From NCBI RefSeq assembly GCF_037975245.1, contig NC_092569.1:19461501-19525500 (forward strand): a stretch of 64,000 bases of DNA, written 5' to 3'. The notes below the pieces were generated by a model. The model had not been told where the DNA came from. It worked only from the letters and a program-made list of their open reading frames with translations, and searched no databases. Below, piece by piece: positions 1,613 to 54,366 of this stretch. Within the stretch, counting starts at the first letter, position 1, and every line of letters starts with the position of its first letter. The stretch comes from Apostichopus japonicus (Eukaryota > Echinodermata > Holothuroidea > Aspidochirotida > Stichopodidae). The position numbers and the translations under genes are program-made.

Positions 1613-1696
1613 ATGTGGATTCCAAGAAAGCTACGATTTTTTATACAATTTTGTTTCTTCGTCCTGTCAAGAAATATTGTCTGTTTCCACGGAGAG
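1613..1696 (+). CDS. Gene A exon 1: signal peptide
   Basis: It encodes 28 residues beginning MWIPRKLRFF, with a basic N-region followed by a Phe/Cys/Val-rich hydrophobic core. It ends GAG before gtgagt at phase 0. The same exon with few changes is at 44700-44783 in gene C and has no counterpart in gene B. Confidence 0.8.
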
Positions 1697-4600
1697 GTGA
1701 GTACTTTTTCAATTCTAATATTTCAGACTTTGTGGAATTTATTTTATTATAAATTGTGATTATTGTATAAATAATTTAACAGTAAGTTTTACCTATTTCA
1801 ATAAATTAAATGTTAAATATCATTTTACATACAATGTATAAAATAGTACTAACAATTTTCTTCGGTGAGGTAGATTTTAAATCCTGTTAGTTTTTCTGCC
1901 TTTAGTTGGATTTAAACTTTAACAAATTTCATTAACTATTCTTAACAGGCTTGCTAAAAAAAACAGACAAAAAACAAATGGGTTCCTAAAATTTAAATGT
2001 ATTAGTTTTCATCCCCAACTCTAGGTAATATATTTTATTTTTTTCATTATATATTTTATACATATTTTTTTTTCGATTGATTTCTAGACATGAAAGCTAT
2101 AATTAAAAAGAAACTACTTGTTATTTAAAGTGAAGTGAAAAGTGTAAAGTATTTACTGTTGGCAGTTTTGTAGATAGTTGTCATCTCTCAATAAGGCCAT
2201 GCAAGAGAAATCAAAAACACTTCTACTTTTGTTTTATGGAATTCCAGGAGTAAAAGCTAGACGTTACAAATACATGGCATTTAAATGTTGCCCACTTTTA
2301 ATTAACATTTGTAGGGACTATTGTTCAGAAAACTTTCCTGATTATTCTAAAAATTCCACTCGCGTCACAGGACGTCGTTTAAAACAATATACAGACCATA
2401 GTTATATTTATTTCTCTCAATAAGTTTGTGTGTGTTGTTCCTATCTTGATGTCATATCCCAACAAAGGTCCACACTGGTAACATATGATTCAATGTGTAG
2501 ATCTATTTCAATTGATTTCCAAAAAAGTACAACTAAAACATTGTATGTAAAACTAGCTCTCGTTGGACAAGCAGTTGTACAATCTATCTCCAATAAAACA
2601 GCAAACTCAGTGCTGTTTGATATTCTCGAAAAATGAATTTCTATTCTTTTAAATCAACCGACTGTTCATTAGGCTTTTTAAAGCTATATGATATATCTTT
2701 ATCTTCATTGGAGTTCTGTTTAATACAAGTTAAAGTATATTATTTAGCTGTTTATCAACTCTTATTGAGATTGATCAAACAAAGACATCTATCTAGAGCC
2801 TGCTACTATTTAACATTAAGAGTAAATAAAATCTCATCTCGTCCATTCTGAGAACTTTAAGTGCCTGTCATGATACTAATTTTAAGGTTTACTTCTAACC
2901 AAACTCAGACGAAACTTAATTGAGTGAATCAACTTCAAACGACTTTGACTTCAGTATTATCGTAGTTTGGAATTTAAAAAAAAAATTGTACTAAAAATGT
3001 TGCATTACTTTATAATTAGCGGGCATACATTCCTTCTGAACCAGTTAGGATCAGCTTTACAAAATCTCAAATTAAATGTTTCTAAACCTATGTTGTATAT
3101 TATATATATTATAGACAACTATTAAAAATGAAAAAGAAGAAGGGATCAAGAGGAATATAAAATGAGGCAAATTCTGAAAGTATATGTACATTAAAACAGT
3201 CGTGACTATATTTCTCAAACAAATCAATCTAGAATACAATTGTTTAATACAAATTAAATCATATAAAACAAATTAAATACCTTTTTCTTAAGATTTAAAG
3301 TTTTCAACTTCAAGATTGGGACAACTTTATCTAAACTTTTACGCTGTAAACTTTTTCTGTCAAGTGCACAGTTTTGATCTACTCAATATTTTTACTTGCA
3401 TTTGCGTCACCTGAAATTTCTCATACTACTCCTTCATACAACTATAAGTATAAGTTTAGTTTACTGTGTCAAATCATTCTTCATTGTAACGATAATGTAT
3501 CATACAAAATAATTAAATATAATATTAATCCTTTCCCTCCTTAAAAAACAAGAACAATAAGTCAGAGAGGCGGTAGCCTAAAAGCGATGTCGTAGATAAA
3601 ACGGTTTTTAGTACAGTATCAAGATCGCTGATTCAATTCGTGGTAGAAGCATTTTCACATTGGTAATAGTATCTTTACCTTCACACGCTCTTTACCTTAT
3701 TCACAAATCCGACCGAAAAAAGAAACAAAGGCTTTGTGATGATATGTAGCTGCAAATTCTAAGGTAAAGAAATATCGTTTATTTAGATAGTTGTCAATCA
3801 ACTAACAGCGTTAAAAGAGTTTCTGTGTTCAGACTGTCAGAGTGTATCTTACGATAATTGATGCTTAATTCCTCCACCAATGTTCTAGACCTCGGCAAAA
3901 TTCATAGCTTCAAAACACAACACTGAACGTTTAAAGAGAAATCTGTGTAGCGGTTGCGTTGGCATTTGGTTAATGTATAAGGTAAACGGATCCTTAAAAT
4001 GGGCAAATTTATAGAAAGCCTATGTAGATACACTGTAATTCATATCTAGGTATATGTTTAACAGTTCGCGATCATGAGTACAAGAGTTTATTTGTGTGTT
4101 GTAACGGCGTTCTTTAGATTGACAAGTCAAACTTCAGGTGAATGTGAATTAATTTCATTGAAGTAACTTTTCCATTGGGTGATCAAAGGATATTCAAATC
4201 TTAGTTGAAAACGAATCGGCCTCTAAATTTGTCATTATTAAAATTTAGATAATTATCTACAGTTATTAATCCCTGAGAGCAATATAAGAACCTAATGAAA
4301 ACTGTTAAACAATGATCAACATAAAGAAAATTATATGTCTGCAGAACAGAAACTTTTGATCAAATTATTTTTTTCGCGCTTATTTTCGTGTAATTAGTTC
4401 AATGAACACTTAAGCAATTTTAACCCATTCACTGGGTTAAAATGTAAATGTTAAAATGTGTGTGTTGTAACGGCGTTCTTTATATTGAACGGTCAAACTT
4501 CAGATGAATGTGAATTAATTGCATTGAAGTGACGTTTCCATTGGGTGATCAAAGGATATTCAAATCTTAGTTGAAAACGAATCGGCATCTAAATTTGTCA

Positions 4601-7600
4601 TTATTAAATTTAGATAATTATCTACAGTTAGATAACAGTGAGAGCAATATATCTACAGTGAGAGCAATATATCTACAGTGAGAGCAATATAAGAACTTAA
4701 TGAAAACTGTTAAACAATGATCAACATAAAGAAAATTATATGTCTGCAGAACAGAAACTTTTGATCAAATTTTTTTTTCGCGCTTATTTTCGTGTAATTA
4801 GTTCAATGAACACTTAAAGCAATTTTAACCCATTCACTGTAAAATAAATCAATTTCTGCCAATTCTAATAATAATAACATAATCTCTCTGATTGCCCTAC
4901 AACATTTTTCGGAATATACACAAATCAACACAAACCATTCATTGTACTATTTTTTTCTGAAAACAAAAGTTAACAGATTTTTTTTTAATTGGTTTAATGA
5001 TCTCAATGCATTTCAACATGCAACGTTTGAACTCGATTCCAACTCCTATACATTAGCTTTACCTCAATCCTTGCTGTTATTACTCAAGTTAAGTATAGGG
5101 AAGTATTTGCCATTTGCAGGAAACAGGCACAGCCGAGTCAATCTCGTACATGTTGCCCTCATAGTTCACGATTGAAAATAAACTGTAAATAAGTGAATGA
5201 CATTCAAGTAAAATTGAAAATGTTGGGGAAAATATGTTAACTATATTTATCGCTGATAACATATACATGATGCTTTGATTCTCTTTTACTCAGAGTAATC
5301 AACAACTCTTTGTAGGAGCGACTGAAGGAAAAGGTCACAGTGAGTGTTTTTTTCATTTTCTATTAATTAACCCTTTTCTTATTTTTCCTATCCCCTGTTT
5401 ATCGTACACTTTCTCATTGATTGATATTTTCATTCCTCATAATCCATGCCAAACATATGTCACGGCAACATCTGTTAATATAATTATGATCACTAACTCT
5501 CGTGTAATATGAGAAGAGAAATATTTCTTCTACTTATTACTTCCTTCAGTCACAAGCAAGTAAATACATTTTGACAAAAAGAAATAACGAAAGCTTTGAA
5601 AAAATCTTCGACACTGTAGATTTCAAATTTGTAAACAACTTTCATGATAAAGCCTTTCTTTACTTGTCAACATATGGTACGGTACACGTTGTGAAATAGG
5701 AAAATATGCTCGCTGGTCTTACATGTCAGTCAGATAATACGCCCATTTTTATATCAGTATTTATATATCATTTTATATAAAGAACTATTTCAAAGGTCAT
5801 TTACATTTGATTGCTTAACTTGTAGATTATCTAAGCAACCTTGGAAATTATCATCCAAGTTCTTTATTGCGTAAATAGTTGCAATTTGTGTATCAAAATA
5901 TTAAGCTGTTATACATTTATGTCACATATGTTGGCAAGATTATATTCTGTACAAAAGCGAAAACCTGACATAAACTCTTCATGGAAAGGAAGTGATGTCT
6001 GAACTGAGAATAACAATCAAATGCAAATTTAGTAATAGATTTTGTTTTAATATTTTTCAGAATATCCTTTCATTTTGTTATTTTTTTTAATGTATATCTG
6101 ATACTAAAATCTTTATTTTTCATATCTTTCACTAATCTTGAATTTGACCTTTTAGTTCAGATTTGACCGTTTATTTTTTTGTATAACGTTAATGCAACTT
6201 TTTAGAGAAGTGTCTTTGTGACGAAATTTCAGTAATTTGGGTTTCATTTATAACATATCACTGAATATTCAAGACTAATTGTAATAATATTTTGGAAAAA
6301 AAACCTCATTTCTTACTATTGCAACCTTGCTCTTGATGTGTTAAGTTAGCATTAAGTCGAGATGAAATATATGATTGTTTAATTAAACTCCTTTTTGTTT
6401 TAAAAATCTGGCTGATTTACGGATAACCTTCTATCTTTACATTATAACGTAACAATAAATCTTGAAGACAACTGAGTTCTCATGATATCAGAATCACCAC
6501 TTGTTCTCCTTTGACAGACTATTTTTTCCTTTATCAACGTCCTGAATACCCAAGAGATTGTCACGAAGTGTTGCATCGTTGTTCATCTACAAGTTCCAGT
6601 GGTGTTTATCTCATTAAACCAGACGGTTATGCCGAACCTTTTGAAGTCTACTGTGATAACACCGCAGATGATGGCGGATGGACGGTACGTATTTCAAAAT
6701 GAATTATGAACGTCGATGCCAAACATCAGCCGGATATTCAGCTTCTTTCACCTAATCAAGCACAGTTTTATAGTGTTAGCTCTCATGTTCCCTTAAGCCT
6801 TTAAATTCTTTTATGATCATGTTTACTTTTTTATACTTGTTTTCATTTTAAGTTGATCACAATATATATTTCATACTAAACTATAAAAAAAATTCTACAA
6901 TTTACCATGCTAGAACTCGTTTCATCTGTCATCCTTTGCATAATGTATCATAATTTGTATATGAAATACTTCTTAACTCCGATGGTCAACTTCTTAAGAT
7001 CTTCAGATGGGATTACTTCAGTTGTGGTTAACAATCAGCCATGGATTTAAACTTTATGTCACAAAATAAAGAAAAAATGATTTTTGGAAACGTAAATGAA
7101 TGGTTGGTTTTAATAATCTAATTTAACTTAATATCTTGTATGAACTATATTCAAATTACTTGTTTCGTTATGCAGATCATTCAACGTCGGTTTGACGGAA
7201 CGATTAATTTTAATCGCAGCTGGGAAGATTATCAGCTAGGATTTGGTTTTCTTTCGAGTGAATTGTGGATCGGTAATAAGAGGCTTTCATACTTAACCAA
7301 TCAAAAGAGATATCAACTCCGTATTGACTTGACGACAACAGATGGTTCGTCTTTTTATGTGACGTATGACACATTCCGAATAAGCGATGACTTTAGCAAC
7401 TACAAGCTCGTCAAAGCAGATATAACCAACAGAACAGTAGGTAAATATATAGAAAAACTTTCAGATACGTTTATTCATGTCCCAAATAGGTCTTTTCTGG
7501 TCGATAGAAGATTCGATATATCATAGGAAATAAGGATGCAGGATTTCGAAGGATATGACAAATTTCAAGCTGATTTAAATGTTCACTATTAAATATTGTG

Positions 7601-10600
7601 ATGATACCTTTATCAATATTCAAGCTTATAAGTTTTTTGTTTTGTTTACTTCCCTTCACCTTAATTCCTGTTTCTACTACACTGTTTTTGTTGTGTATTA
7701 TGTGAAGAAAAAAATTAACACAATAAACTAAATTGAACTTACTAATTAACTCCCATAGTTACACCCTTCTGTACAGCCTATGTCTACAGCTATATCATCT
7801 CCTAAGCCTAATCTTCAATCTTCATTTTTGTCTAATTTAGCCAACTACCTGTCCAACTGACTTGTTAAAAGTCAGTTTGAATTTTCAATTTTTAAATCTG
7901 TCTTCGTTTCAGTTTGTCTCTGACGAAGATCTAGCTAGGATTGATAAGCCAGGCCCTCTAACTTATTCAGTTTACGAAATTGCATTTGATCATAAGCTAG
8001 ACTAAAGTCAAGTATCATTTCAAAATATTTTCGCATCAACTAGAACGATCTTGAAATGTCACAGTTCCTTCTTGCGTGTTAATACTTTTATACAAAGTGG
8101 TGTCGTTGTGGAGTATAAAAACTCAGACTCGGAACATATTTCGTAATTTATAGAAATTGTCAACCAAACACCAAACCACTGCTTGAAGTTATAACCCTTT
8201 ATTAAGCCAAATTCGTTATGTTTCGTTACAGAGTTCATAATAAGAATAGCTAATTTTAAAGTATATTTTTCTTATTCTCATAGGCTATGTAAATAACTAC
8301 ATTGAATGGTGTCCAACAAATAAAACCTACAATGAGTGTCAACTTTGCGAGGCTACCTGTGCAGATCCTGATAGTTGTGTCAATACTTCCTGCAAAGGAT
8401 CTCATTCGTGTGTCTGTCCTGGGGGATTTTTGATGAACGATGATAACTGCATTAGAATAGAGGACTGCGGATGTTACATCGAAAGTGAAACAGATGGAGA
8501 GAAAGGTGTATTGTTAGAAGTAAGTATTTTCTTTCAGATTGTGATATCTATTACCAACAGTGTAACAATTTAAATGATGCTTTCAAAAACTGGGGTTAGT
8601 GGATCGATTTACATTTGCCTCTGACCTCTTCCAACCCGCACTCTCGTCAACTTTGGATATACACACTTTTGCCAGTAAATTTAGGAAAACTGATATATCT
8701 TGTGCGTGTTTGCAGTATTTCATCTTATCACTACTAAAAGAAACCTTTTCAAATCCCTCAAGTTACTTATGATACGTGTAACGATTTTCTACTTTCCAGG
8801 AAGGAGGAATTTACGTCTCTCCAAACTGTGACAAGAAATGTTCTTGTACGGATAATCATCTTTCGTGTGACGATAGTTATCAATGCGATTCTAACGCAGA
8901 TTGTGAAGAAAGGAACGGTATTTTACAATGTTACTGTCCGCCTGGGTTTAGCGGAGACGGCACACAGTGTAGGCCTACAGGCGGCACATTCCCTTCTGAC
9001 TGTAAAGAACTGTACAACAATGGCGAGAGAACTAGTGGCGTCTATGAAATCAAACCCACCATTTGGCCTGACTCTCCGTTTGAAGTTTACTGTAATATGT
9101 CTGACGGGGGAGGCTGGACGGTAAGTGTGACAGTTTTTCTTAAACCAGTGATCCGCAAGCTTTTAGGTAGACGACACACAAGTCATCCATGAATACCAAA
9201 CCACGACCCACCAGAGCCCAATCCCTCATAACGGACGTTCAAAATACATAAAAGCTAGTTTGGATTGTGAATATGATGTTCGATTTGATACCCGTAAGCT
9301 AGTTTAAACAACGTTGCCGTATGTAGAACACGGGATTAGGCTGCCCTTTAGACGGAGAAAGTTGAATGCCTAATTTATTGCCACTAGGAGCGCATTCCCT
9401 AAGATGAAGCATTCTCTGTGTTGTGTTAGTACTTTCAGGAATTTATTATTAGAAACTTCACGAATCTTTACATATTGGTTGTTCTTTGGATAAGGGTTGA
9501 TTTTTTTTTGTAATTGTTATATTAACGGGCAATATTTATGGCATCAAAATATTGGTGGTGAGAACCACTTCTAAATGACTGTAATGATGTAATACATGTA
9601 TGTTCCTTAAGAACTGAATATTTACGTTGATTTTTTTAGGTATTCCAGCGTCGCGTTGATGATTCACAAGACTTTTATCTTTATTGGGATGACTACAAGA
9701 TTGGCTTTGGTAATCGAAGTCGGAACTTTTGGCTCGGAAATGAAAAGATATATAGCTTGACGAACCAAAGACAATATGAACTCCGGATCGACTTAGTTGG
9801 CCGTTACGGTGCCCCTTACTACGCCAAATACGAGTTCTTTCGTATCAGTGACGAGAACGATTACTTCAGGCTAGATGTTGGAAATTATTCTGACGGAGAT
9901 GCAGGTAGGTTAATATCTCCCGAATTATCAATCCTATCATGTTATTTTCTTGTCAGTTTGACATAATATATATTGTTTATTTAAGAACGAAGTATTTACA
10001 AAGAATTATGTAGTACTATTTGTATGATATAATTCACTATCCAATCACTTACTAGTTTATACACAATGTTTTGTCTTTGCTGAAAATAACGAGATTAACT
10101 CGACGGCAGGTCCTGGTGATTAACTGTGGTAATAGTTTGTTGATCCAAGGAAGGTGCATATATCTAGTAGGTAGAAATCTCTGGACAAATAGCTGGACCT
10201 TTGGACCTACGAACACTCAAAATCAAGACACTTCAGTTAGTATCATATAAACCCGCCATATCATACAGTACCTAATTATGTTTATACTTCTTTGCATAAG
10301 GCACATACATAGGGAAAAGATTAGCAATTTATATTCGACAAGATAGACCGAACACTAGCAGTAATTGTTAATGTAATCAGACATGTAATGTAACGACCAA
10401 ATATTACAAAGCCATACTCAAAAGGAAAATATGGAAATATCACAGGGTAAGATGATTATGTACCCTACGCAAATCTTCACGCACACGTACAGACACACAC
10501 GCGTGCGCACAAGCACAAACTTAAATATGCATATTGTATCATTGTACGGTGCTGGACTCCCGAGTAGCTCGTGTTTAGAGGGTACGATAACAGATCTTGC

Positions 10601-11819
10601 CAATTGGGGTTGTTTTAAGTGGTAGGCTAACAATTCTAGAAATGAACGATTCGTTAAAGTTGATCTATATTGATTGATTTATTTACTCCTTCTTCTATCA
10701 AATTTATGTCAGCAATAAGTGCTGTAAGCAAAGATATCACATTTATTCATACCGCCAGCATGCTCGATAAAAGGAACGATGATGAGATTATTCTCGTTCG
10801 AATACAAAACAGCTGCAGTCGACATGCGTGCTCGCCTAGAACAGCTACGTCATAAAATATCATTGTAGGTCATGTTAAAAAAGCGGAGCTTCAACAGCTG
10901 ACAGCATCAATTAAATATATTCTTAACTATTACATAACAACAATAAACCAAATACACCGTAGCTGTTCTTGTAAAGGAAAGCCGGATCACTTGTAATATT
11001 ACACTGAAATAGAACTGTTGTGTATGACAATTGTCCTCTATTCCAGTCTTGAAAACTTATATAAAAATGAAAACAGATAAATAGATGACAAAACAAACTT
11101 ATTAAAAATGAGGACACATGAATGAACTCCCTTTAATTTACAAACGGCAAGATCGGGGAAGTACTTATGAATATTACGATGAAAGTAGTGCATACTTCGA
11201 CCATGTCGGAATTTTTTTTTATTGATTTCATCATGAAAGAAAATTCGTTACAAAAAAAACAAAAACAAAACTAAACGCTTTCACAATATGAACAATAGTT
11301 CAACAACATAACAAGCCAAACATAATATTTGACAACCCCTTTCCCTTCCCCTTCCCTTTCCACATATTTTCGTGTTTAATAATCATAGATAATACACGAC
11401 GTTTAGTTTAACACACGTTAATCAAAATCAAAATCACATGTAATATATAATTATTGGAATAACATGTTGCTAAGTATACTGAATCGATGCAATGAACTAA
11501 TTTTTGAATTTCTTTCTGTTTCTTCTTCTATTGTTTTTATTTAACAGGTGATTCGCTGACCTACCATGATGACCAACAGTTCACTACACGAGACAACGAT
11601 AACGATGACTACGACTATAGTAATCTTAGCTCTGAAAATAACAACTTAGCCCGTTATTATGATGGTGCATGGTGGTACATTGATTATTATTATGATTATT
11701 CATCTCTAAACAGTCCCTATGGGAGTTATTACTTTTATTGGTATAGCCTTCCAGGTTATTATTATTATTATATGCAATTTTCAGAGATGAAAGTTCGCGC
11801 AATCGATGAAGAACAATAA
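1613..11819 (+). CDS. Gene A: secreted half-FReD / TIL / EGF / FReD protein (8 exons)
   Basis: Exons: 1613-1696, 5294-5339, 6518-6684, 7176-7440, 8284-8519, 8800-9120, 9640-9904, 11548-11819. The sum is 1656 nt, 551 aa plus TAA, with every junction in phase and GT..AG introns. Order seen: signal peptide (1-28), short linker (29-43), N-terminal and middle parts of a first FReD (about 44-187), TIL module (about 193-250), Cys-rich/EGF-like region (about 267-323), complete second FReD (about 333-546). FReDs of secreted animal proteins usually bind sugars or acetyl groups or self-assemble; TIL modules occur in protease inhibitors and VWF-type proteins. A role as a secreted recognition, clotting or matrix protein is inference. 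The first FReD lacks its C-terminal third and the second lacks the usual last Cys pair. The model rests on agreement with copies B and C, with no transcript evidence. The start is the first ATG of a hydrophobic exon shared with gene C. Confidence 0.85.
4092..4840 (+). repeat. Direct tandem duplication inside gene A intron 1
   Basis: Two copies of about 350-370 bases lie 366 bases apart (gtaacggcgttctttaga at 4101, and again at 4467). The second copy also has a 20-base unit with gtgagagcaatata repeated three times (about 4640-4693). Gene C has a single copy at about 47270-47600. Confidence 0.8.
5294..5339 (+). CDS. Gene A exon 2: short linker
   Basis: This 46-nt exon lies between a tttactcag acceptor and a gtgagtg donor. 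It encodes SNQQLFVGATEGKGH plus one base and changes the phase from 0 to 1. It is conserved at 29030-29075 and 48088-48133. No known domain is recognised in this short Gln/Gly-containing linker just after the signal peptide. Confidence 0.75.
6518..6684 (+). CDS. Gene A exon 3: N-terminal part of FReD 1
   Basis: It contains YPRDCHEVLHRC, SSGVYLIKPDG, PFEVYCD and ends DDGGWT at the splice site, the classic start of a fibrinogen C-terminal domain (Cys, SGVY.I.P, EVYCD, GGWT). It has one Cys (HRC) more than the usual pair. Acceptor ttgacag, donor gtacgt, incoming phase 1, outgoing phase 0. Confidence 0.85.
7176..7440 (+). CDS. Gene A exon 4: middle part of FReD 1
   Basis: It starts IIQRRFDGTINFNRSWEDY and includes GFGFLSSELWIGNKRLSYLT, YQLRIDLTT and FRISDDFSNYKL, matching the QRR.DG...F.W..Y..GFG....E.WLGN core of FReDs. 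It is 265 nt long, outgoing phase 1. In an ordinary FReD a third exon with the calcium site and ligand pocket follows; here the next exon is the TIL module. Confidence 0.85.
8284..8519 (+). CDS. Gene A exon 5: TIL (trypsin-inhibitor-like Cys-rich) module
   Basis: It reads NYIEWCP, NECQLCEATC, DPDSCVNTSCKG, HSCVCPGGFL and CIRIEDCGC, giving the ten-Cys spacing of a TIL module plus the CGCY tail usual in VWF-type TIL proteins. Acceptor ctcatag at phase 1, donor gtaagt at phase 0. The exon is present in gene B and missing from gene C. Confidence 0.8.
8800..9120 (+). CDS. Gene A exon 6: Cys-rich/EGF-like module fused to start of FReD 2
   Basis: The first part (GGIYVSPNCDKKCSC, DDSYQC) resembles the E region that follows TIL modules in zonadhesin-like proteins. 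Next is an EGF-like stretch (CDSNADCEE, CYCPPGFSGDGTQC). Without an intron it runs into FReD 2 (SDCKELYNNGERTSGVYEIK, FEVYCNMSDGGGWT). The site ctacag/gcggcac inside the exon, near 8969, looks like a fossil acceptor; the matching sequence is a real-looking acceptor in gene C. Confidence 0.8.
9640..9904 (+). CDS. Gene A exon 7: middle part of FReD 2
   Basis: It encodes VFQRRVDDSQDFYLYWDDYK, GFGNRSRNFWLGNEKIYSL, QYELRIDLV and YYAKYEFFRISDENDYFRL, a well-conserved FReD core. The acceptor tttttttag opens at phase 0; the exon ends GDAG before gtaggt at phase 1, the same length (265 nt) as exon 4. Confidence 0.85.
11548..11819 (+). CDS. Gene A exon 8: tyrosine-rich C-terminal part of FReD 2 and stop
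   Basis: It begins GDSLTYHDDQQFTTRDNDND, which aligns with the GDSL.YH....F.T.D.DND calcium-site segment of FReDs, and ends FSEMKVRAIDEEQ then TAA. GAWWY is present, but neither Cys of the usual C-terminal pair is. About 20 of 89 residues are Tyr, many from runs of tat codons. AATAAA at 11815-11820 overlaps the stop codon. Confidence 0.85.
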
Positions 11820-12324
11820 AGACCTACAACGGCATGTATGAAACTATAGCACAAGAACAGTTAACAACAGTTAAATATATTGATGTATTGCTTCTATGTT
11901 TTGTGTATCGTAATGGCAATGCTTTTATCAATAATTATGTTACAAAACATGCTGACTTCTTTTCTTTTCTTTTTAGTTTAGTTCGACAGAACTTCCATTC
12001 CATGTAAACGATTGGTAACTATGCACTATGGATTGTGTATTGCTTACAAAATTTGACCTCTTCCCCCCCCCCCACCCTAATGTTCTCAATGTTTCAACTT
12101 TTGAGTTCTCTTAAATTTCCAAACTCAGAAATGAATATGAGAGACAGTTGCTGTATAAAAAATAAACGAAAAGCCAATATATAAGCAAACATGGCGAGAC
12201 CTTTCGGAGCTTGTGGTTTGCAGAATTCTATCGAAATTAGACCATTATGTCTGATGCATTCATTGTATTTATTTAGTCTTCCCCAATCTTCAATCGTAAC
12301 ACGTTGATAGTAGTTTATAAACAT

Positions 12325-12690
12325 GCCTAACCCTACCTTTTTTATAGTAGATATAAAGTACACCTTACCGTTATGTGTTTTTAAATACACCATGCCCTAA
12401 CATGTTTTAAAATACGCCTAACTCTCACATGTTTATATAAGTTTGTAAATACGCTTACTCCCAAACTTATGTATAGTAGTTATGTAATGCACCTTACCCT
12501 AGCATATTCTTAAATACACCTTACCCTAACATGTTTTAAAATACGCCTAACTCTAACATGTTTATATGTTTTTAAATACGCCTACTCACAAACTTATTTA
12601 TAAGTAGTTATGAAATGCACCTTACCCTAGCATGTTCTTAAATACACTTTACCCTGACATGTTTTTAAATACGCCTAACCCTAATGTATT
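12325..12690 (+). repeat. Telomere-like minisatellite after gene A
   Basis: Degenerate units of roughly 27-40 bases alternate ttaccctaacatgtt and aaatacgcctaaccctaa. CCCTAA resembles the animal telomere motif, but here it is interspersed with other sequence. Matching arrays follow genes B and C at similar distances. Confidence 0.7.
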
Positions 12691-12699: not shown

Positions 12700-15480
12700 A
12701 TTGCAACTGGAACTTACTAATAGGCGATATCTTTCTTAGGGTAAAAAATGATGTCCCGCTTACTTTATACAAAAAACATTTAACTTAATTGATACAGACT
12801 ATATCACTGGGGAGGGAATTCACAATTTCCCGTTTGCTCTATTTCTATTTTTTCTTTCACCACTATAAAGTCTCGAACGAAGTCAGTGGAGCGCCCCCCT
12901 TTAACTTTTCCTCATTACTCAAACCCGTATGGTGGAATAAGTGTTATATAGTGTAGTTCCGAACGCTCCAATCTCCAGAACAAGCGGCTGGTTTGAAGAT
13001 AGGTCAAAGATAGAAACGGGAACACGCACGCCCCTAGGTGGTGACGTAGGTTTCCGGCTCTCAGCAGGAATGGTCGAATAAAATATAAAGATTCCAACCA
13101 TGTTCTAATACATTTTCCAGGTTGTAAATATGTAAATATAACCTTACAGATGTGATATTAAACACATTTTTGCAACGAAAACAATATGTACCAACATTCA
13201 TTATGGCTATAATAATTCCCCTGTCATAGTATGGTAACAACACATTAATTATTTACAAACACAAAATTTAACACTTTATAAGTTCTTAATTCTTGGTTAC
13301 CGTCTTCCTTGATCAACGATGATATTCCACTTCAAAATGTCTTCATGACTTATCTCTTATACGTTTCTTTTTACGTACCAACTCAATTAAATGCTTTCTC
13401 GAAATCCTCCCGAGGGTTTGCTATAGAAGATGAAGAAATGTTTAATGTTGGCTTCACTTTTTCTTTTCTTTAAACCAAAATTGCAGTTCAGATTATTCCA
13501 TGCCCTACAAAGTATATTTATTGTATACTCTGGCAAATAGATCCCAGCCATCTAGAGAAATAGCATAAAAATGTACTTACATGGTAAGGACTCTTAATTA
13601 GTTTAACGACATCGTCCTGAGCTCTCTTTTCATGACACCCGGTCTCCCAACACGATGCGACGACGATAGACGTTAGCATCCAAACAGTGAAAAACAAGAA
13701 AACACTAATAAATAACTGCCTTTATACAAACGGCCCAGCTACTAGATTACTATCTCGTGGCGATTTCTGGTGAAATAAGTAACAATAATATTGAGCTTCT
13801 TTAAGATGTATCTCCTCTGTATGGAAACTAATTTCGGAGTGTCTTCCAAAATATCCCTAATTTCGCCTTCCGAAAATAAGAAAGGACATTTTAATTAACA
13901 AAGCCAAACCCGCTTAAGCTGCTTATTTACGTGACCAATTCCGGTCATCAGGACATTTTGAGAAGCTGGTGTATAAAAAAAAGGTTTTTATACAAATACT
14001 CTACATATTAAATAAATCCAAACAAAGCATAACCTGGCGCTTAAATCCAGTCTTTCATGAAATTTCTTTAGGGAATACGGGGTTAACCAAATACCTGAAC
14101 ATCTCTAGCCGCGGTTAGGCTATCAATATATCCAAATTTTTTTTTTAATCGCATGAATTACAGCCTCTAAGATTATTTACTTGTTTATAGGTACGTAATA
14201 TATATACATATAAATCGTATATTGAATTAATTTAACTAATGAGACATCCCTGTCGGTGAGAATCTACAATGACATCCGTTCAGCATAAAAATCAATCCCA
14301 AATCATATTACTGTATCGCGTACTCAAACTCAGTTTCAATCAACGACGTACATATGATTTCAAAGGAGGCGCTGTGTGATTCTGATTTCTCTCGACTCGG
14401 GGCATTTTTGAAGATTTTGGGACGGGCGTCCTGAGCCCCGGTGAGGTGGTCTCATATTTCGTGAATGCAATGGAAATAATGCCCACACTGAGATTTACAC
14501 ATCCACTTTGACCGGGGTTCTAGTAGCCAATGTTGTTATTAGTTTTGTTTTACATTTGACCCTGTGACGTTATCACTGACGAATGTACTACAAGACAACG
14601 CCAGTACACATCCTACAAGTTCATCGGCTTCAGGTTAAGGAGGAGCAGACTGCCTGGTACACTTTTTGTTCATACACAGACACATAAAATCTCACACACT
14701 CATCACCATGACAGATAAATTTTAGACCACTATGTCCCAAATGGTAAATCTACCCCATTTTATTGTATCACACTTAGGAATCCCTTCTCCAATGTCCACC
14801 AGTTTCAGTTACAAGTTCTGCTACAACTTTTATTTAGCCACTTTCCAAAATCCCTTTTCCGACAAAATGGGATGAAGGCTCTGCCTGCATGGCTCATAAT
14901 ATAGATAGTCTACAATCCTGATCCCCCTCTTTTCCCACACCTCGCACCCCTTTCCCTTCCCTTATGTCCCTCTCGCTCTTCCCTCTCCCCTCTTTCAGTA
15001 CCCACTCTTCTCCCATTTCCCCCTCCCTTCCTCACGATAGCCTATGAAGTTGCTGAAGAATCAGAAACTGTCTATACATATAGTCAACCAGGGCAATATT
15101 GGCTGATTATACGACTGGAAGTCAAGAAACGTGCTATAGGCTGTAACTATATATTATCGCTTGGCGATTGATGCACATCGCCCCTATTCCATCTGCCAAC
15201 GCTCGACATACAAAAACAGCTACATACGTACGTGCATGTAGCCTTTGTACAGCTGCATATGTTATGGAGATTTGCTTACCATAGTATCCTAACCCAATCA
15301 CACTTCACGGGCAGTAAAGATATGACAGAAACCGTTTACAGTAATTAAAATAATAGTAAGTGTTAAATTGAGATCGAAATGGCCGCTCTAACAAAACCAT
15401 GGGAGAAAATGGGTCAGAACAACAGAGGGTGTTGTCAACAAGCTGGAAGCAGCATGTAAGTGCCTAACCTCGAAATCCTA
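12700..15480 (+). repeat. 3' flank of unit A
   Basis: There is no convincing gene here. It is paralogous to 55330-61040 in unit C (apart from the insertion there) and from about 14130 partly to 36800-38900 in unit B. It holds a pyrimidine-rich tract (14920-15040) and the exon-like ATGGCC segment near 15378. Relative to C it lacks about 380 bases near 14530, between gtagccaatg and ttgttat. Confidence 0.6.
15378..15452 (+). pseudogene. Exon-like ATGGCC segment, copy A (frameshifted)
   Basis: It matches 38785-38861 in unit B but lacks one base after about codon 10. The frame therefore ends at the codon overlapping the donor-like gcatgtaagtgc. The B copy is open up to that donor. Either a broken first exon of an unknown neighbour gene or chance. 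Confidence 0.35.
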
Positions 15481-40020: not shown

Positions 40021-40191
40021 AAAACTCTTTAATAAAGTCTCAAAAATCCTAGCTTAATGTTCCGGCTTATGTTTTTGCTTTTAAAAATGCTTGACAGTGT
40101 GTTGAAAGCATCGTTGGTTATACCAATTCTTTGGTTAACGTCTTCTTCGGTCCCCAGCATGCTTCCAACATATTTACACTTCTTCCAACTT

Positions 40192-40590
40192 TCATTTCCT
40201 TCTTGTGATTGAAAATTTCTCAGTTTTTGTGCAATTGATTTTCAGATTTCTTCCTGCCAGTTTGCCAGAAACTCGTTTTTCGATATCTTGCAGTATATGC
40301 TGACCAGTTGATGCCCAAGAGATATCATCAGCGTATTGTTGGTCTACTGTGAAAAAAGAATTAGTGGTGGTAGTACTGTAATCATGATCAACTAACTGCG
40401 ATGGCAGGATAACTGCATCAATATCATTATCATCTGATTTCAAAGAGTTGGCTAAATAAGTAATAAAAAATAGTGCGCTTGCACTATCTCCTTGTGGTGA
40501 ACCAATGTTAGTGATAAAAGGAAGTCCGAGTTTGCCCTCTAATTTGACGGCGTAGGAGACGTTATCGATTAGTAGTGATATCAGGTGAAG
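40192..40590 (-). pseudogene. Reverse-transcriptase fragment of the LINE
   Basis: It is open from about 40590 down to 40192 and includes GLPFITNIGSPQGD, the YADD catalytic motif and KINCTKTE. The N-terminal half of the RT and any endonuclease are missing through 5' truncation. Confidence 0.75.
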
Positions 40591-43770: not shown

Positions 43771-43772
43771 GC

Positions 43773-44699: not shown

Positions 44700-44783
44700 A
44701 TGTGGATCCCAAGAAAGCTACGATTTCTTGTACAAATTTGTTTCTTTGTCCTGTCAAGAAATATAATCTGTTTCCACGGAGAG
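44700..44783 (+). CDS. Gene C exon 1: signal peptide
   Basis: It encodes 28 residues, MWIPRKLRFLVQICFFVLSR and onward to FHGE, then gtgagt. It is a close paralogue of gene A exon 1, including the upstream 300 bases. Confidence 0.8.
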
Positions 44784-47700: not shown

Positions 47701-50700
47701 ACAAATCATTCATTGTACTATTTTCTGAAAACAAAACTTAACAGATTTCTTTTTAATTGGTTTAATGATCTCAACGCATTTCAACATGCAACATTTTATG
47801 ACTTTTACAACATTTATGACCGAACTCGATTCAAGCTCCTATACACTAACTTTACATCAATCCTCGCTGTTATTACTCAAGTAAAGTATATGAAAGTATT
47901 CGCCATTGCAGAAAATAGGCACAGACGACTCAATATCGTACATATACCCTCATATAGTTCACGACTGAATGTAAACTGTAAATAAATTAAGGACATTCAA
48001 GTCAAATTGAACATATTGGGGAAAATATGTTTACTTTATTTATCGCTGATAACATATGCATGATTCTTTTGATTCTCTTTTACTCAGAGTAATCAACAAC
48101 TCTTCGTAGGAGCGACTGAAGGCAAAGTTCACAGTGAGTGTTTATTCATTTTCTATTAATTAACCTTTTTTTTCTATCTCCTGTTTATCGTACAATTTCT
48201 CATTGATTGATATTTTCATTTCTCATAACTCATGCCAAACATTTGTCACAGCAACATCCGTTAAAATTATTATGATCACTAACTCTCGTGTAATATGAGA
48301 AGGGATATATTTTCTGCTTATTACTTCCTTCAGTCACAAGCAAGTAAATACACTTTGAAAAAAGAAATAGAGATAGTTTTGCAAAAATCTTCGACACTAT
48401 AGATTTGAACTTTGTACACAAATTGCATGATAAAGCCATTCCTTATTTGTCAACATATGGTACGGTACACGTTGTGAATTAGTAAAGGATGTGTTAAATA
48501 TTTGTCGATGAATGCGCCCATTTTTTTATAGCCGTATTTTATCACTTTTGTATCACATTTGATTGCAAAACCTGTATATTATCTAAGCAACCTTGTGAAA
48601 TTATCATTCAAGTTCATTATTGCGTAAATAAGTTGCAGTTTGTTTACCAAATATTAAGCTTTCATACATTTACGTCACATATGTTCCAAGATTATATTCT
48701 GTACAAAAGTAAGAAACCTGAAGTAAACTTTTCTTGGAAAGGAAGTGATTTCTGAATTGAGTTTAACGTTAAAAAGCAAATTATTAATAGATTATGTTTT
48801 TCAGAATATCCTTTCATTTTGTTATTGTTTTTTTTATAGTTTATCCGATACTAAAAACTTTGATTTTCATATCTTTCACTAACCTTGAATTTTACCGTTT
48901 AGTTGAAATTTGACCATTTATATTTTGTATAACGTTACTGCAACTATTTAGAGAAGTGTCTTTGAGACGAAATTTTCAGTAATTTGTGTTTCATTTATAA
49001 CATATCACTGAATATCCAAGACTAGTGAAGGCATACCATGCTATCTTTTATTAGATCAATTGTAATATTATTTTGGAAAAAAAATTCTTACTATTGCATT
49101 CTTGCACTTGATGTGTTAAGCTAGCATTAAGTTGAGATGAAATACATGATTGTTTAATTAAACTTCTATATTTACATGATAACCTAATAATACATCTTGA
49201 AGACAACTGAGTTCTCATGATATCAGAGTCACCACTTGTTCTCCTTTTACAGACTATTTTTTCCTTTATCAACGTCAAGAATACCCAAGAGATTGTCACG
49301 AAGTGTTGCATCGGTGTTCATCTACAAGTTCCAGTGGTGTTTATCTCATTAAACCAGACGGCTATGCCGAACCTTTCGAAGTCTACTGTGATAACAGCGT
49401 AGATGATGGCGGATGGACGGTACGTAGTTCAAAATGTATTATGAATGTTGATGCCAAACATCAGCCGGATATTCAGCTAATTTCACCTAACTGAGCAAAT
49501 TTGTATATTATTAGCTCTCATGTTCTCCTAATCCTTTAAATAATTTTATGATCATGTTTACTTTTTTATACTTTCTCCATAAAACTCATGTTAAGTTGAT
49601 TACAATATACATTTCCTACTGAAATACAAAGAAATATGTACAATTTACCATGCTAGAACTCGTTTTATTTGTCATCCTTTCCATAATGTATCATAATTTG
49701 AATATGAAATACATCTTCGCTCCGGTTGTCAGCCTTTTAAGATCTTCAAATGGGATTGCTTCTGTAGTGGTTCACAATCAGCCTTGGATTTAAACTTTAT
49801 GTCACAAAATAAAGGAAAAAGGGAAAAAAAGTTAATGAATGGTAAGCTTTAATAATAATTCTAATTTAACTCAGTATCTCCTATGAATTATGTTCAAATT
49901 ATGTGTTCTGTTATGCAGATCATACAACGTCGGTTTGATGGATCGATAAATTTTAATCGCAGCTGGGAAGATTATCAGCTAGGATTTGGTTTTCTTTCGA
50001 GTGAATTGTGGATCGGTAATAAGAGGCTTTCATACTTAACCAATCAAAAGAGATATCAACTCCGTATTGACTTGACGACAACAAATGGTTCATCTTTTTA
50101 TGTGACGTATGACAAATTCCGGATAAGCGATGTCTTCAGCAACTACAAGCTCGTCAAAGCAGAAATAACCAACAGAACAGTAGGTAAATATATAGAAAAC
50201 CTTGCAGATACGTTTATTTATGTCTCAATTGAGTCTTATATGAGAAAATAAGGATGCAGGATTTCGAGGGATATGACGAGTTTCGAGATGACTAAAATGC
50301 TCACTATTAAGAAGTTTGGTGATACCTCTATCAATATTCCCATAAAGGTTTACTTCCATTTGCCTTACTTTCTACTAGACTGTGTCTGTTGTGTTGTATT
50401 TATGATTTTGTTTGTCAAATTTGGTTAACTTCTTGTCCAACTGTCTTGTTTAAAAGTGTCCTTAATTTTTCTTCGTTTCAGTTTGTCTCTGACGAAGATC
50501 CAGCTAGGATTGATAAGCCAGGCACTGTAACTTATTCAGTTTACGAAATTGTTTTCATCATAAGTTAAACTAAAGTCAAGTATCATATTAAGGTATTTTG
50601 GCAAAAGCTAGAACGATTTTTAAAGGCGGCAGTTCCTTCTTGCGTATTAATACTTTTATACAAAGTAGTTTCGTTGTGGAGTAGTAAAACTCAGACTCTT

Positions 50701-53700
50701 TTCTTTTCCGAAATTTATAGAAAATGTCAACCAAACACCAAACCAATGCTTGAAGTTCTAACCCTTTATTTAGTCAAATTAGTTATGTTTCGTTACAGAG
50801 TTCATGATATGAATAGCTAATTTTAAAGTATTTTTTTTTGACAGGCGGCACAGTTCCTTCTGACTGTAAAGAACTGTACAACAATGGCGAGAGAACAAGT
50901 GGCGTCTATGAAATCAAACCCACAATTTGGCCTGACTCTCCGTTTGAAGTTTACTGTAATATGTCTGACGGGGGAGGCTGGACGGTAAGTGTGACAGTTT
51001 TTCTTAAACCAGTTACCCGCAAGCTTTTAGGTAGACGACACACAAGTCATCCATGAATACCAAACCACGACCCACCAACGCCCAATCCCTCATAACGGAC
51101 GTTCAAAATACATAAAAGCTAGTTTGGATTGTGAATATGATGTTCGATTTGATACAAGCTAGTTTAAACAACGTTGCCGTATGTAGAACACGGGATTAGG
51201 CTGCCCTTAAGGACGGAGAAAGTTGAATGCCTAATTTATTGCCACTAGGAGCGCATTCCCTAAGAGGAGGCATTCTCTATGTTGTGTTAGTACTTTCAGG
51301 AATTTATTATTAGAAACTTTACATATTGGTTGTTCTTTGGATGAGGGTTGATTTTTGTTGTTTCATTATATTAACGGGCAATAGTTATGGCATCAATATA
51401 TAAAAATATTGGTGGTAAGAACCACTTCTAAATGACTGTAATGATGTAATACATGTATGTTCCTTAATAACTGAATATTTACTTTGATTGTTTTAGGTAT
51501 TCCAGCGTCGCGTTGATGATTCACAAGACTTTTATCTTTATTGGGATGACTACAAGATTGGCTTTGGTAATCGAAGTCGGAACTTTTGGCTCGGAAATGA
51601 AAAGATATATAGCTTGACAAACCAAAGACAATATGAACTCCGGATCGACTTTGTTGACTACGGTGGTGCTCCTTACTACGCCAAATACGAGTTCTTTCGT
51701 ATCAGTGACGAGAACGATAACTTCAGGCTAGATGTTGGAGATTATTCTGACGGAGATGCAGGTAGGTTAATATCTCCCGAATTATCAAACCTATCATGTT
51801 ATTTTCGTCAGTTTAACATTATATATCATGTTTATTTTATAACGAAGTGTTTATTAAGAAGTATGTAGAACTATTTGTATGATATAATTCACTATCCAAT
51901 CACTTACTAGTTTATACACAATGTTTTGTCTTTGCTGAAAATAACGAGATTAACTCGACGGCAGATCCTGGTGACTTACTGTGGTAATAGTTTGTTGGTC
52001 CAAGGAAAAAGCATATATCTATTAGGAAGGAATCTCTGGCCACATAGCTGGACCTTTGGACCTAAGAACACTCAAAATCAAGACACTTCAGTTAGTAACA
52101 TATAAACCCGCCATATCATACAGTACCTAATTATGTCTATACTTCTTTGCATAACTTATATTTGACGAGATAGACCGAATACTAGCAGTAATTGTTAATG
52201 TAATTAGACATGTAATGTAACGACCAAATAGTTTTACAAATCCATTAATCAAAGGAAAATATGGAAATATCACAGGGTATGATGATTATGGACCCTACGC
52301 AAATCTTCACGCAAATGTACGCGCATATAATTTAATTTCACTGGGCTGGACTCCCGGGTAGCTCGTTTTAGAGAGTACGATAACAGATCTTGCACTTTGA
52401 GTTGGTTTAAGTGGTAGGCTAACAATTCTAGAAATGAACGATTCGTTTAAGTTGATCTTTATTGATTGATTTATTTACTCCTTCTTCTATCAAATTTATG
52501 TTAGCAGTAAGTGATGTAAGCAAAGATATCACATTTATTCATACCGCCAGCATGCTAGGTGAAAGTAACGATGATGAGATTATTCTCGTTCGAATACAAA
52601 ACAACTGCAGTCGACATGCGTGCTCGCCTAGAATAGCTATACGTCATGAAATATCATTGTATTTATTATTATTATTATTATTATTTAGGTTTTACAGTCT
52701 TGTTCAGGGCTATGACCCTCTTTCACGACTTTACAACTTAACCCAACTTAACCCATTGGTAAGTTGTCATACCTACACACCAAAGTGTGCACAATGCAAT
52801 CAACCTTTCTTGGGGCACCACAGTGCACCACAAACACGTGTCCCCCGGGGGACTTCCCATAGGGTGCAGCCACAAACCGGCGCACGCAACTATATTTAAA
52901 AGTTACCTCGCAAGTCCCCATTTATACACCTGGGCAGTGGCGTAGGAAGGTACTTTTGAGTGGGGGGCTGAAAACTGATGGCCGGCCTGGGGGAGGGGTC
53001 TAAGGGGAGGGGGTGTCCCCCTCCCCTTTGGAATTTTTTTGCATTTCCAGGTGGCCTCAGATGCAATTTGGTGCAATATAGCACACTTCAACACCCACTC
53101 CATTTTGTAAAGAATTTTGCATTTTCACCTGGCCTTAGATGCAATTTGGTGCTTCAAATGAGATTTTTTTCTCATTTGGAAATGAAAGAGGGGTTTTCTG
53201 ACTTGCGGAGCGGGGGGGGGGCGGAACGATACTTCCGCCCCCATATTTTTCACGGGGGGGGGGGGCTGGCGCCCCCAGCCCCCCGGTTCCTACGCCCTTG
53301 CACCTGGGTGAAGAGAGGCAATTTAGATAAAGCGCTTTGCCTTAGAACACAACGCAATGAGCTGGCCAGGACTCGAACCTGTAATCATAAGATCAAAAGT
53401 CCACTGCCTTAACCACTTGACCACAACGCCCTCGTAAGTGATATAAAAAAAGGGGGTGCTTCAAGGAGCTCACAGCATAAATTAAATACATTCTAAACTA
53501 TTATATATCAAAAAGTAAACCAAATACACCGTAGCCAGCGCTGTTGTAAAGGAAAGCCGGATCATTTGTAATGTTACACTGAAATAGAACTGTTGCGCAT
53601 GACAATTGTCCTCTATTTCCAGTTTTTAAAAACTTATAGATAAAAATCAAATCAGATAAAAAGATGACAAAAAAAAAACATAAACAATTAGGACACATGA

Positions 53701-54366
53701 ATGAACTTGGTTTAATTATGAATATTACCATGACAGTAGCGCATACCTCTACCATGTAGGATTTTTTGGTTTTTGTGATGTCGTCATGAAAGAAAATTCG
53801 TTACAAAAAACAAAACAAAAAGAAAACTAAACGCTTTCACAATATTAACAATAGTTCAGCAACATAATAAGTCAAACATAATATTTGATAACCCCTTTTC
53901 CTTCCCCCTTCCCTTTCTACATATTTTCGTTTTTAATAATCATAGATAATACACGAAGTTTAGTTTAACACACGTTAATCCAAACCACATATAATATGAA
54001 ATATCGTAATTATTGGAATAACATTTTGCTAAGTATACTGAATCGATACAATGATTACATTTTTAAATTTCTTACTGTCTCTTCTCATTTTATTTTTATT
54101 CAACAGGTGATTCGCTGACCTACCATGATGACCAACCGTTCACTACACGAGACAACGATAACGATGACTATGACTATACTTTCTTTAGCTCTGAAAATAA
54201 CAACATAGCCCGTTATTATGATGGTGCATGGTGGTACGGTTATTATTATTATTCATCTCTAAACAGTCCCTATGGGGGTTATTACTTTTATTGGGGTACC
54301 CTTCCAGTTTATAATTACATTAAATTTACAGAGATGAAAGTTCGCGCAATCGATGAAGAACCATGA
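44700..54366 (+). CDS. Gene C: secreted protein with two directly joined FReD pieces (7 exons)
   Basis: Exons: 44700-44783, 48088-48133, 49253-49419, 49919-50183, 50845-50984, 51497-51761, 54107-54366. Total 1227 nt, 408 aa plus TGA, all phases consistent. It has the same signal peptide exon as gene A and the same two-exon partial FReD. FReD 2 then follows directly, because the TIL exon and the EGF half of the next exon are missing. The junction reads NRTVG/GGTVPSDC. The shortened fifth exon uses a tract of nine T followed by gacag as acceptor, at the phase needed. The last exon is Tyr-rich and lacks the usual Cys pair. Expression cannot be judged from sequence. Confidence 0.8.
48088..48133 (+). 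CDS. Gene C exon 2: short linker
   Basis: SNQQLFVGATEGKVH plus one base, 46 nt, between tttactcag and gtgagtg. Confidence 0.75.
49253..49419 (+). CDS. Gene C exon 3: N-terminal part of FReD 1
   Basis: It reads YPRDCHEVLHRC, SSGVYLIKPDG, PFEVYCDNSVDDGGWT, 167 nt, with acceptor tttacag and donor gtacgt. All expected FReD start motifs are intact. Confidence 0.85.
49919..50183 (+). CDS. Gene C exon 4: middle part of FReD 1
   Basis: IIQRRFDGSINFNRSWEDYQ, GFGFLSSELWIGNKRLSYLT and YQLRIDLTTTNGSSFYVTYD, 265 nt, ending at phase 1 before gtaaat. It is almost identical to gene A exon 4. Confidence 0.85.
50845..50984 (+). CDS. Gene C exon 5: shortened exon holding only the start of FReD 2
   Basis: It starts at gcggcac after a T-rich acceptor and reads GGTVPSDCKELYNN, RTSGVYEIKPT, FEVYCNMSDGGGWT, 140 nt (phase 1 in, phase 0 out). 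It corresponds to the last 140-150 nt of gene A exon 6. The intron sequence just upstream matches that before the TIL exon of gene A, so roughly 700 bp present in A are absent here. Confidence 0.8.
51497..51761 (+). CDS. Gene C exon 6: middle part of FReD 2
   Basis: VFQRRVDDSQDFYLYWDDYK, GFGNRSRNFWLGNEKIYSL and FRISDENDNFRLDVGDYSD, 265 nt, from ttttag to gtaggt. Confidence 0.85.
52660..53434 (-). mobile_element. tRNA-derived SINE in the last intron of gene C
   Basis: On the minus strand the head (about 53434-53350) has box A (tggtcaagtgg) and box B (ggttcgagtcc) with a degenerate tRNA fold. It is followed by gcaaagcgctttatctaaa, and the tail ends in aat repeats at 52664-52686. The paralogous site in gene A (about 10865) lacks it. 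The target duplication is not clear. Confidence 0.75.
52935..53300. mobile_element. 366-bp hAT-like MITE nested in the SINE
   Basis: The ends CAGTGGCGTAGGAA and CAAGGGCGTAGGAA (reverse complement of the right end) are inverted repeats. The 8-base duplication cacctggg flanks it at 52927-52934 and 53301-53308. Eight-base duplications and CAGNGGCGTAG-type ends are typical of hAT elements. It has no coding content. Confidence 0.85.
54107..54366 (+). CDS. Gene C exon 7: tyrosine-rich C-terminal part of FReD 2 and stop
   Basis: It starts GDSLTYHDDQPFTTRDNDND, contains GAWWYGYYYYSSLNSPYG and ends FTEMKVRAIDEEP, TGA. About 16 of 85 residues are Tyr, and no Cys is present in the exon. It is shorter than exon 8 of A (89 codons) and B (91 codons) through indels in the Tyr-rich loop segments. 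Confidence 0.85.

Follow-up and report, generated by a model that had tools for sequence, protein, structure and literature searches.

What kind of protein do the multiplied FReD genes of a sea cucumber encode? Among the foremost candidates for germline recognition repertoires in invertebrates are the FReD families. Their expansion as FREPs in Apostichopus japonicus is already published: in the accessible part of that source, FReD genes are the most expanded family of the species, lie mainly on LG02 and include a tandem cluster of 21 genes on Scaffold75 (PMC5638244). The expansion has been linked to regeneration, and no published architecture for it was found. We analysed a window of 64,000 nucleotides of A. 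japonicus DNA in which an earlier note, made from the sequence alone, had placed three paralogous genes in tandem. All three are present on the + strand, as are all features given below, and the outer limits proposed for them hold: gene 1 has its start codon at position 1613 and gene 3 its stop codon at 54366.

Results

Gene 1 begins with a signal peptide-like exon (1613–1696; MWIPRKLRFFIQFCFFVLSRNIVCFHGE), for which eight genome matches were among those listed, all within the array to which the window belongs. The exon chain first proposed for this gene missed a 46-nt second exon (5294–5339, phase 0 to 1; SNQQLFVGATEGKGH). This exon is needed because the signal-peptide exon ends in a canonical phase-0 donor and cannot otherwise join the A subdomain of the first FReD, which is in phase 1; a phase-1 donor inside exon 1 had been weighed before exon 2 came to light. 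Exon 2 is bounded by AG/GT and open in all six aligned copies, and was recovered with 0–6 substitutions in each of the ten sequences searched. Exons 3 (6518–6684, with an extra cysteine) and 4 (7176–7440, phase 0 to 1) encode the A and B subdomains of the half-FReD, exon 5 (8284–8519, phase 1 to 0) the TIL module, and exon 6 (8800–9120, phase 0 to 0) TILa, EGF and the A subdomain of the second FReD (FReD2). The B subdomain of FReD2 follows in exon 7 (9640–9904) and its P subdomain, with the stop codon, in exon 8 (11548–11819). A segment near 7926–8000 (FVSDED...), conserved in genes 1 and 3, was weighed as a possible exon; the DNA comparison gave no match for it in gene 2.

The candidate signal peptide of gene 2 (25721–25801; MDCLLVRAVLVSFLGSVTIGFTLADET) belongs to a second type and is encoded by a different exon from the one first assigned; a similar exon is present in loci L028 and L029, and none was found in L030. 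Its exon 2 (29030–29075, donor GTGAGG) differs from that of gene 1 by five substitutions in 54 bases. The half-FReD A (30197–30363) and B (30878–31142) exons are followed by a TIL exon lacking two of the cysteines present in gene 1 (31739–31974), by the exon for TILa, EGF and FReD2 A (32231–32533), and by FReD2 B (33019–33283) and P with the stop codon (34802–35079). Gene 3 opens with a signal peptide-like exon (44700–44783; MWIPRKLRFLVQICFFVLSRNIICFHGE), exon 2 (48088–48133) and half-FReD A (49253–49419) and B (49919–50183), and continues directly into FReD2 A (50845–50984), B (51497–51761) and P with the stop codon (54107–54366). It is without TIL, TILa and EGF: gene-1 bases 8271–8976 (~700 bp) have no counterpart in gene 3 in the DNA comparison, and an acceptor at the breakpoint, before 50845, joins the half-FReD to FReD2 in frame.

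Genes 1 and 2 thus encode, in order, a putative signal peptide, a half-FReD (A + B), TIL, TILa, EGF and a complete FReD. The order half-FReD, TIL, EGF, FReD that had been ascribed to all three genes applies to these two, with a TILa between TIL and EGF that had gone unnamed, and gene 3 consists of half-FReD and FReD only. In all three, as had been proposed, a truncated first FReD, made of A and B exons without P, accompanies a full second one. Pfam found two Fibrinogen_C stretches per gene (297.1, 283.5 and 304.1 bits for genes 1, 2 and 3). For gene 1 TILa scored above its cut-off (32.2 bits; cut-off 27), and EGF_3 (27.4; 28.5) and TIL (24.0; 24.5) slightly below theirs; for gene 2 every one of the three scores fell below cut-off (EGF_3 26.9, TIL 21.1, TILa 19.7). 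The half-FReD matches Angiopoietin-2 over query positions 13–148, and the best PDB match of FReD2 is ficolin-2, at full length (1.5e-46). Hydrophobic N-terminal exons were read in all three genes. The extra cysteine occurs in the N-terminal A exons and is missing from A2; from the counts we infer that it is unpaired.

The TIL module had been described as protease-inhibitor-like. A role as protease inhibitors, with TIL acting on a protease and the FReDs directing it to surfaces, draws on the similarity to TIL and on the 11 cysteines in the TIL exon of gene 1; the TIL protease-inhibitor fold has ten. This role is nevertheless quite improbable, as TILa directly follows TIL, the TIL exon has nine cysteines in gene 2 and in ten of 20 non-array loci, and gene 3 is open although it has no TIL module. 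The label finds no support as the best description of the module: TILa comes next, as in VWF-type proteins, and two of the gene 1 cysteines are missing from TIL in gene 2.

The window sits within a tandem array of at least 16 copies on contig C9, so that the tandem arrangement stands and the family size of three does not. The exon models of the array members, which impose the phase pattern and include some weak sites (the TIL donor of L005) and one B1 exon cut short (L012), place lesions in five of the 16. Among the best 150 TIL-exon matches in the genome, 141 fall on C9. Family searches of the genome score about 150 candidates, so these totals are lower bounds; copies were mapped with 136 of 150 matches, the 14 that had an A-exon match only being left out. 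The family is very large in the sea cucumber genome, and its members are probably secreted.

Could the half-FReD instead be a separate or decaying gene lying upstream of a TIL-EGF-FReD gene, so that two genes have been read as one? The gene models were built from genomic DNA. We read 20 further loci, picked non-randomly to spread over clusters, 13 of which had a prior half-FReD-B match. The order A1-B1-TIL-TILa/EGF-A2-B2 was found in 18 (17 on C9, one on C20), with lesions in two of these (L009 and L015), and five of the seven loci without a prior match had a half-FReD-B when read. The remaining two, L006 and L023, carry TIL-EGF-FReD with no half-FReD found within ~3.5 kb upstream, as separate genes would allow. 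Chance is excluded as the source of the order, because exon order and cysteines recur in loci whose exons are only ~27–74% identical to those of gene 1. A search for a P exon between half-FReD B1 and the next exon was negative in 34 of 34 intervals, apart from one match in L034 (19.2 bits, 17 residues, E 0.58), and the same search found 15 of 15 positive controls; a diverged P exon overlooked between B1 and TIL is thus unsupported. In addition, eight places around C9:10.0 Mb, four of which were read, have half-FReD-B and TIL within a single open frame. At the DNA level, then, the separation of FReD1 and FReD2 exons into different genes that the earlier note had entertained is not what we found: the phases fit, and the conserved exon 2 connects the signal peptide. 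We regard two genes read as one as highly improbable.

Judged by exon order and not by a spliced model, some genes on C9 may further carry the half-FReD-TIL-TILa-EGF cassette two or three times. The end of the three-cassette gene, in L059, was not seen, as the 6.2 kb examined yielded no P exon.

For the open modules of the array, dN/dS (pooled pairwise Nei–Gojobori with a codon bootstrap, without phylogeny) was 0.29 for A1, 0.24 for B1, 0.43 for TIL, 0.31 for TILa-EGF-A2, 0.49 for B2 and 0.70 for P2. The half-FReDs are under purifying selection: their values of 0.22–0.29, with bootstrap upper ends of 0.41–0.64, rule out a decaying relic and speak against a separate upstream gene. Within P2 the conserved ends gave 0.21 and the middle 0.94, with a bootstrap interval of 0.52–1.76 for the middle and values >1 in 40% of resamples; the intervals of P2 (0.42–1.28), B2 (0.26–0.88) and TIL (0.24–0.88) overlap. 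Divergence thus peaks in the P subdomain of the last FReD, and falls short of proof of positive selection. Subfamilies also differ strongly in P-loop length and cysteine content.

For the trees, 12 of the 16 array members were dropped, as were lesion-bearing modules. Without an outgroup, 23 N-terminal and 24 C-terminal A+B halves were separated with a support of 0.999. When 11 FReD-B exons from other contigs were added to the B-exon tree, the half-FReD B exons remained one clade (23 of 23, support 0.861), which supports a single origin of the half-FReD and again argues against two genes; the C-terminal FReD B exons mixed with the added exons and formed no clade of their own. Descent of both halves from one old fusion, considered after the 0.999 split obtained without an outgroup, is therefore no more than possible, since the C-terminal exons mix once the others are added. 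The n = 0 forms, L006 and L023, are placed among C-terminal exons from genes with n = 1; they may be losses or may have been joined in another way.

Discussion

We propose that the window belongs to a family of probably secreted FREPs of the form (half-FReD-TIL-TILa-EGF)n-FReD, with n = 1 in genes 1 and 2, and give an even chance to a role in recognition, with a C-terminal head that varies in the germline and is carried on a stalk rich in disulfide bonds. In tachylectin 5A, ficolins and FIBCD1 the ligand pocket lies in P; the half-FReD, which lacks P, would thus be a structural or oligomerising head, and the extra cysteine of its A exon may form a bond between chains. The TIL-TILa-EGF part would be a stiff disulfide-bonded stalk, and the C-terminal FReD, retaining its Ca2+-site motif, would present the variable P loop as a recognition surface. 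Germline duplication and P-loop change could then yield a repertoire of soluble proteins that recognise or agglutinate in the coelomic fluid or at wound surfaces. The diversified recognition role first suggested for these genes is thus plausible, as the P subdomain varies most and loop length and cysteines differ between subfamilies. Published FREP responses also fit it, namely a rise during visceral regeneration in A. japonicus (PMC5638244) and the LPS induction of one FREP EST in Holothuria glaberrima (PMC2702171).

The same modules could serve a matrix, clot or regeneration scaffold, in which half-FReD, TIL-TILa and EGF assemble extracellular material and copy number reflects dosage and not recognition diversity. 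VWF-type assembling proteins typically contain TIL-TILa pairs; in VWF-type proteins such as zonadhesin, FCGBP and tectorin, TILa comes after TIL and an EGF-like module is present, as in genes 1 and 2. Pfam detected neither VWD nor C8 in genes 1 and 2, which counts against a scaffold. In the accessible parts of the sources, expression of A. japonicus FREPs is raised in the early and middle stages of visceral regeneration (PMC5638244) and fibrinogens belong to the predicted ECM glycoproteins that were detected in the body wall (PMC7599334), although neither group is linked there to the half-FReD architecture. Dosage also does not predict that P should change most, with such large differences in loop length and cysteines. 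We consider a scaffold possible but rather unlikely.

A broader version of the recognition reading can be put forward tentatively, as something we would not yet expect to hold in full. The repertoire may be germline-encoded and chromosome-scale. Its unit would be a so far undescribed cassette, in which a FReD is truncated between its B and P exons and fused to TIL-TILa-EGF; one to three of these phase-0 modules would precede an end FReD with a variable P loop. Cassette number would set reach and valency, and the P loop specificity. The arrangement seems a clear example of domain shuffling driven by exon phase. With a defined modular plan, selection that preserves a truncated FReD and one subdomain that changes most, 'FREP expansion' becomes a design that can be tested, in the ligand of each copy, oligomerisation by the half-FReD and the role of cassette number.

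How do these genes compare with known FReD proteins? No description of the half-FReD/TIL/TILa/EGF/FReD architecture was found among the open-licence papers listed. Fibrinogen-like protein A, or FREP-A, of sea cucumbers differs from it in being, presumably, a single-FReD protein. It is likewise a holothurian FReD protein (P19477; cited in the accessible part of PMC2702171), and the same source reports one FREP EST induced by LPS in the intestine of Holothuria glaberrima. In the accessible text of PMC8476170, FREPs are mentioned only in a legend and TIL only in a table. Set beside the published A. japonicus clusters by description, the window genes are likewise FReD-bearing by Pfam, and their plan is not in the accessible description of the expanded FREPs (PMC5638244).

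With ficolins, tachylectin 5A (TL5A) and FIBCD1 the window genes share, by alignment only, the aspartates of the Ca2+ site in FReD2 P: the motif RDNDNDD occurs in 14 of 15 aligned array P exons, including genes 1–3, and RDKDNDD in L037. Site residues, both for Ca2+ and for the acetyl pocket, follow the accessible part of PMC3908420. The pocket pair with its cis peptide (Cys206–Cys219 in TL5A, Cys401–Cys414 in FIBCD1), the S1-site pair missing from gene 1 exon 8, has no equivalent, as the P exons of genes 1–3 contain no cysteine; FReD2 thus lacks the pair that connects Ca2+ site and acetyl pocket, and the best-known FReD ligand is not expected here. Cysteines do occur in this part of P in array members L033, L038 and L041. 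Ficolins, tachylectin 5A and FIBCD1 are without the half-FReD and stalk, and Pfam found no ficolin-type collagen region in the three genes; a single COLFI match, in gene 3, stayed below threshold (16.8 of 26.2 bits). The molluscan FREPs, which combine IgSF with FReD, are also large germline-diversified FReD families. Pfam detected no IgSF domain upstream of the FReD in the three genes; in its place the window genes have a half-FReD, joined in genes 1 and 2 by TIL-TILa-EGF.

Exon structure of the window genes

The window spans C9:19,461,501-19,525,500 in forward orientation. Genes 1, 2 and 3, neighbouring paralogues on the forward strand, each have a hydrophobic N-terminal exon and a 46-nt exon 2, followed by the A1 and B1 exons of a half-FReD and by A2, B2 and P2 of a complete C-terminal FReD2. 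Between the two FReDs, genes 1 and 2 additionally have one exon for TIL and another for TILa-EGF-FReD2A. Phases were compatible along the chain (exon 1, 0; exon 2, 0-1; A1, 1-0; B1, 0-1; TIL, 1-0; TILa-EGF-A2, 0-0; B2, 0-1; P2, 1-stop). By Pfam, all three genes have two Fibrinogen_C matches; genes 1 and 2 also match TILa, EGF_3 and TIL, several of these with scores just below the curated cut-off. FReD2 aligned with ficolin-2 over its whole length, and alignment of the half-FReD with Angiopoietin-2 (query residues 13-148) stopped about where P would start. A phase-1 intron joins the B exon to the P exon in the complete FReD of the window; in the half-FReD, the TIL exon occupies the position of that intron.

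The earlier note had assigned the order half-FReD, TIL, EGF, FReD to all three genes. This order was confirmed for genes 1 and 2, but TIL, TILa and EGF are missing from gene 3. DNA comparison showed that gene 3 is without a counterpart of 8271-8976 in gene 1, and at the breakpoint its FReD2A exon has an in-frame acceptor. As the TIL exon is present in 15 of the 16 copies of the surrounding tandem array, deletion of the TIL region from gene 3 is the simplest reading of these sequences.

The TIL exon of gene 2 (31739-31974) lacks two of the cysteines of gene 1 (NEFEL and DSFVN), presumably leaving their partners free to pair together. The candidate signal-peptide exon of gene 2 (25721-25801) is unlike the gene 1 type. 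The array contains two dissimilar types of this exon: the first gave eight matches, and the second occurs in gene 2 and in loci L028 and L029, and was searched for in L030 and not found there.

The half-FReD and its cassette

With the P exons identified to date as queries, a search of 34 intervals between B1 and the following exon detected a P exon in none of them, apart from a single 19.2-bit match covering 17 residues. As a positive control, the same approach recovered the P exon in all 15 intervals, with each interval's own query excluded. At eight places in C9:9.999-10.081 Mb, of which four were read, a query of B1, TIL and TILa-EGF identified half-FReD-B and TIL as a single uninterrupted open frame of 179-184 residues.

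Exon order suggests that the half-FReD-TIL-TILa-EGF cassette is also repeated in some genes. At C9 10.03 Mb, an A exon precedes three pairs, each a B-TIL frame and then a TILa-EGF-A exon, and the series closes with a B exon; the 5 kb fetched beyond it showed no P exon. At 29.757 Mb, two cassettes are followed by a B exon and a P exon. Where phases were modelled, the cassette from B to TILa-EGF-A starts and ends in phase 0, and can therefore multiply without a frame shift.

Family size and ancestry

The array comprises 16 copies at C9:19.349-19.657 Mb, marked by FReD1-B matches of 88-99% identity. Five of the 16 (L032, L033, L038, L040 and L042) carry a lesion between A1 and B2, and the P exon of L040 is likewise broken. 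The best 150 of 589 TIL-exon matches were on C9 (141, array included), C15 (4), C20 (4) and C14 (1). Within 2.5 kb on the expected side, at least 72 of these 150 had FReD-B, at least 68 had TILa-EGF-FReD and at least 54 had both; no opposite-strand partner of either kind was listed for them within that distance. We fetched 20 further loci, chosen from different clusters on C9 (18), C15 (1) and C20 (1). The order A1-B1-TIL-EGF-A2-B2 was present in 18 (17 on C9, one on C20); of these, L009 carries a stop in P, and L015 is interrupted by stops in both B2 and P. The half-FReD was not found within the stretches fetched for L006 (C9) and L023 (C15).

In an A+B tree without outgroup, a branch with support of 0.999 split 23 N-terminal from 24 C-terminal halves. 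Of the internal modules, the two from L057 grouped with the N-terminal halves and the one from L018 with the C-terminal halves. When 11 FReD-B exons from other contigs were included in a B-exon tree, a single clade (0.861) still comprised all 23 N-terminal exons together with both L057 modules, but the C-terminal exons intermingled with those from other contigs. That the N-terminal B exons stay together indicates that the half-FReD has a single origin, older than its spread over C9 and C20. In the B-exon tree, a FReD-B exon on C2 (L068, C2:13,339,840) was the nearest relative of the B exon of the TIL-EGF-FReD gene L023 on C15; there are therefore relatives on further chromosomes.

An expansion of A. 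japonicus FREPs, clustered on LG02, has already been published, as has their increase during visceral regeneration (PMC5638244), and in Holothuria glaberrima a FREP EST is induced by LPS (PMC2702171). No description of the half-FReD/TIL/TILa/EGF/FReD architecture was found in the parts of the open-licence literature searched.

Neighbouring features

Window positions 62307-63997 are similar to 23417-25079. Between genes 1 and 2 (17587-19235), a 197-bp unit, alternatively read as 395 bp, is tandemly repeated 8.4 times, and 27-bp minisatellites with units of CCTAACCCTAACATG or similar lie 3' of genes 1, 2 and 3 (12297-12684, 36286-36754 and 54878-55331, respectively). Between genes 2 and 3, two reverse-strand open frames (39608-40039 and 40195-40590), which by eye and by motif we take to be reverse transcriptase-like, are probably a retroelement remnant. 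A short open frame resembling a FReD-B fragment, SSDENDNDRLDI (62323-62475), is perhaps the remnant of a further copy. Elsewhere in the genome, COX1 on contig C35 stays open when translated with the echinoderm mitochondrial code and is followed by an ND4L-like frame, judged by eye. Contig C29 has five COX1 matches (14745-31219), and may therefore represent either a fragmented second copy of the mitochondrial genome or a mitochondrial DNA insertion.

Variability and the ligand site

Pooled dN/dS ratios in the array, whose bootstrap intervals overlap, were 0.29 (A1), 0.24 (B1), 0.43 (TIL), 0.31 (TILa-EGF-A2), 0.49 (B2) and 0.70 (P2) for open modules, and 0.29, 0.22, 0.43, 0.33, 0.54 and 0.71, respectively, for lesion-free members only. 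The dN of the P exon was 0.12, compared to 0.03-0.05 in the other modules. Within P, dN/dS was 0.21 at the ends and 0.94 (0.52-1.76) in the middle, which appears relaxed or diversifying, short of proven positive selection. The subfamilies differ in the length of the P loop that separates GAWWY from the LN motif: it spans a few residues in some and tens in others, and is partly cysteine rich.

All 32 lesion-free N-terminal A exons have an additional, third cysteine after the first one of the A subdomain, and all 34 A2 segments have exactly two cysteines. This suggests the extra A1 cysteine as a candidate for an inter-chain bond. The product would, we propose, have a head-stalk-head layout, in which the variable tip at the C terminus may recognise microbial or host surface ligands.

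In FIBCD1, the Cys401-Cys414 bond connects the Ca2+ site with the S1 acetyl pocket, and Cys206-Cys219 is its equivalent in tachylectin 5A (PMC3908420). In our alignment these positions fall in the P exon, so that the half-FReD, having no P, should not bind ligand in the manner of FIBCD1 or tachylectin 5A. The window FReD2 keeps the Ca2+ aspartates but has neither cysteine of the pair, which makes a classical acetyl pocket unlikely and implies a different ligand specificity.
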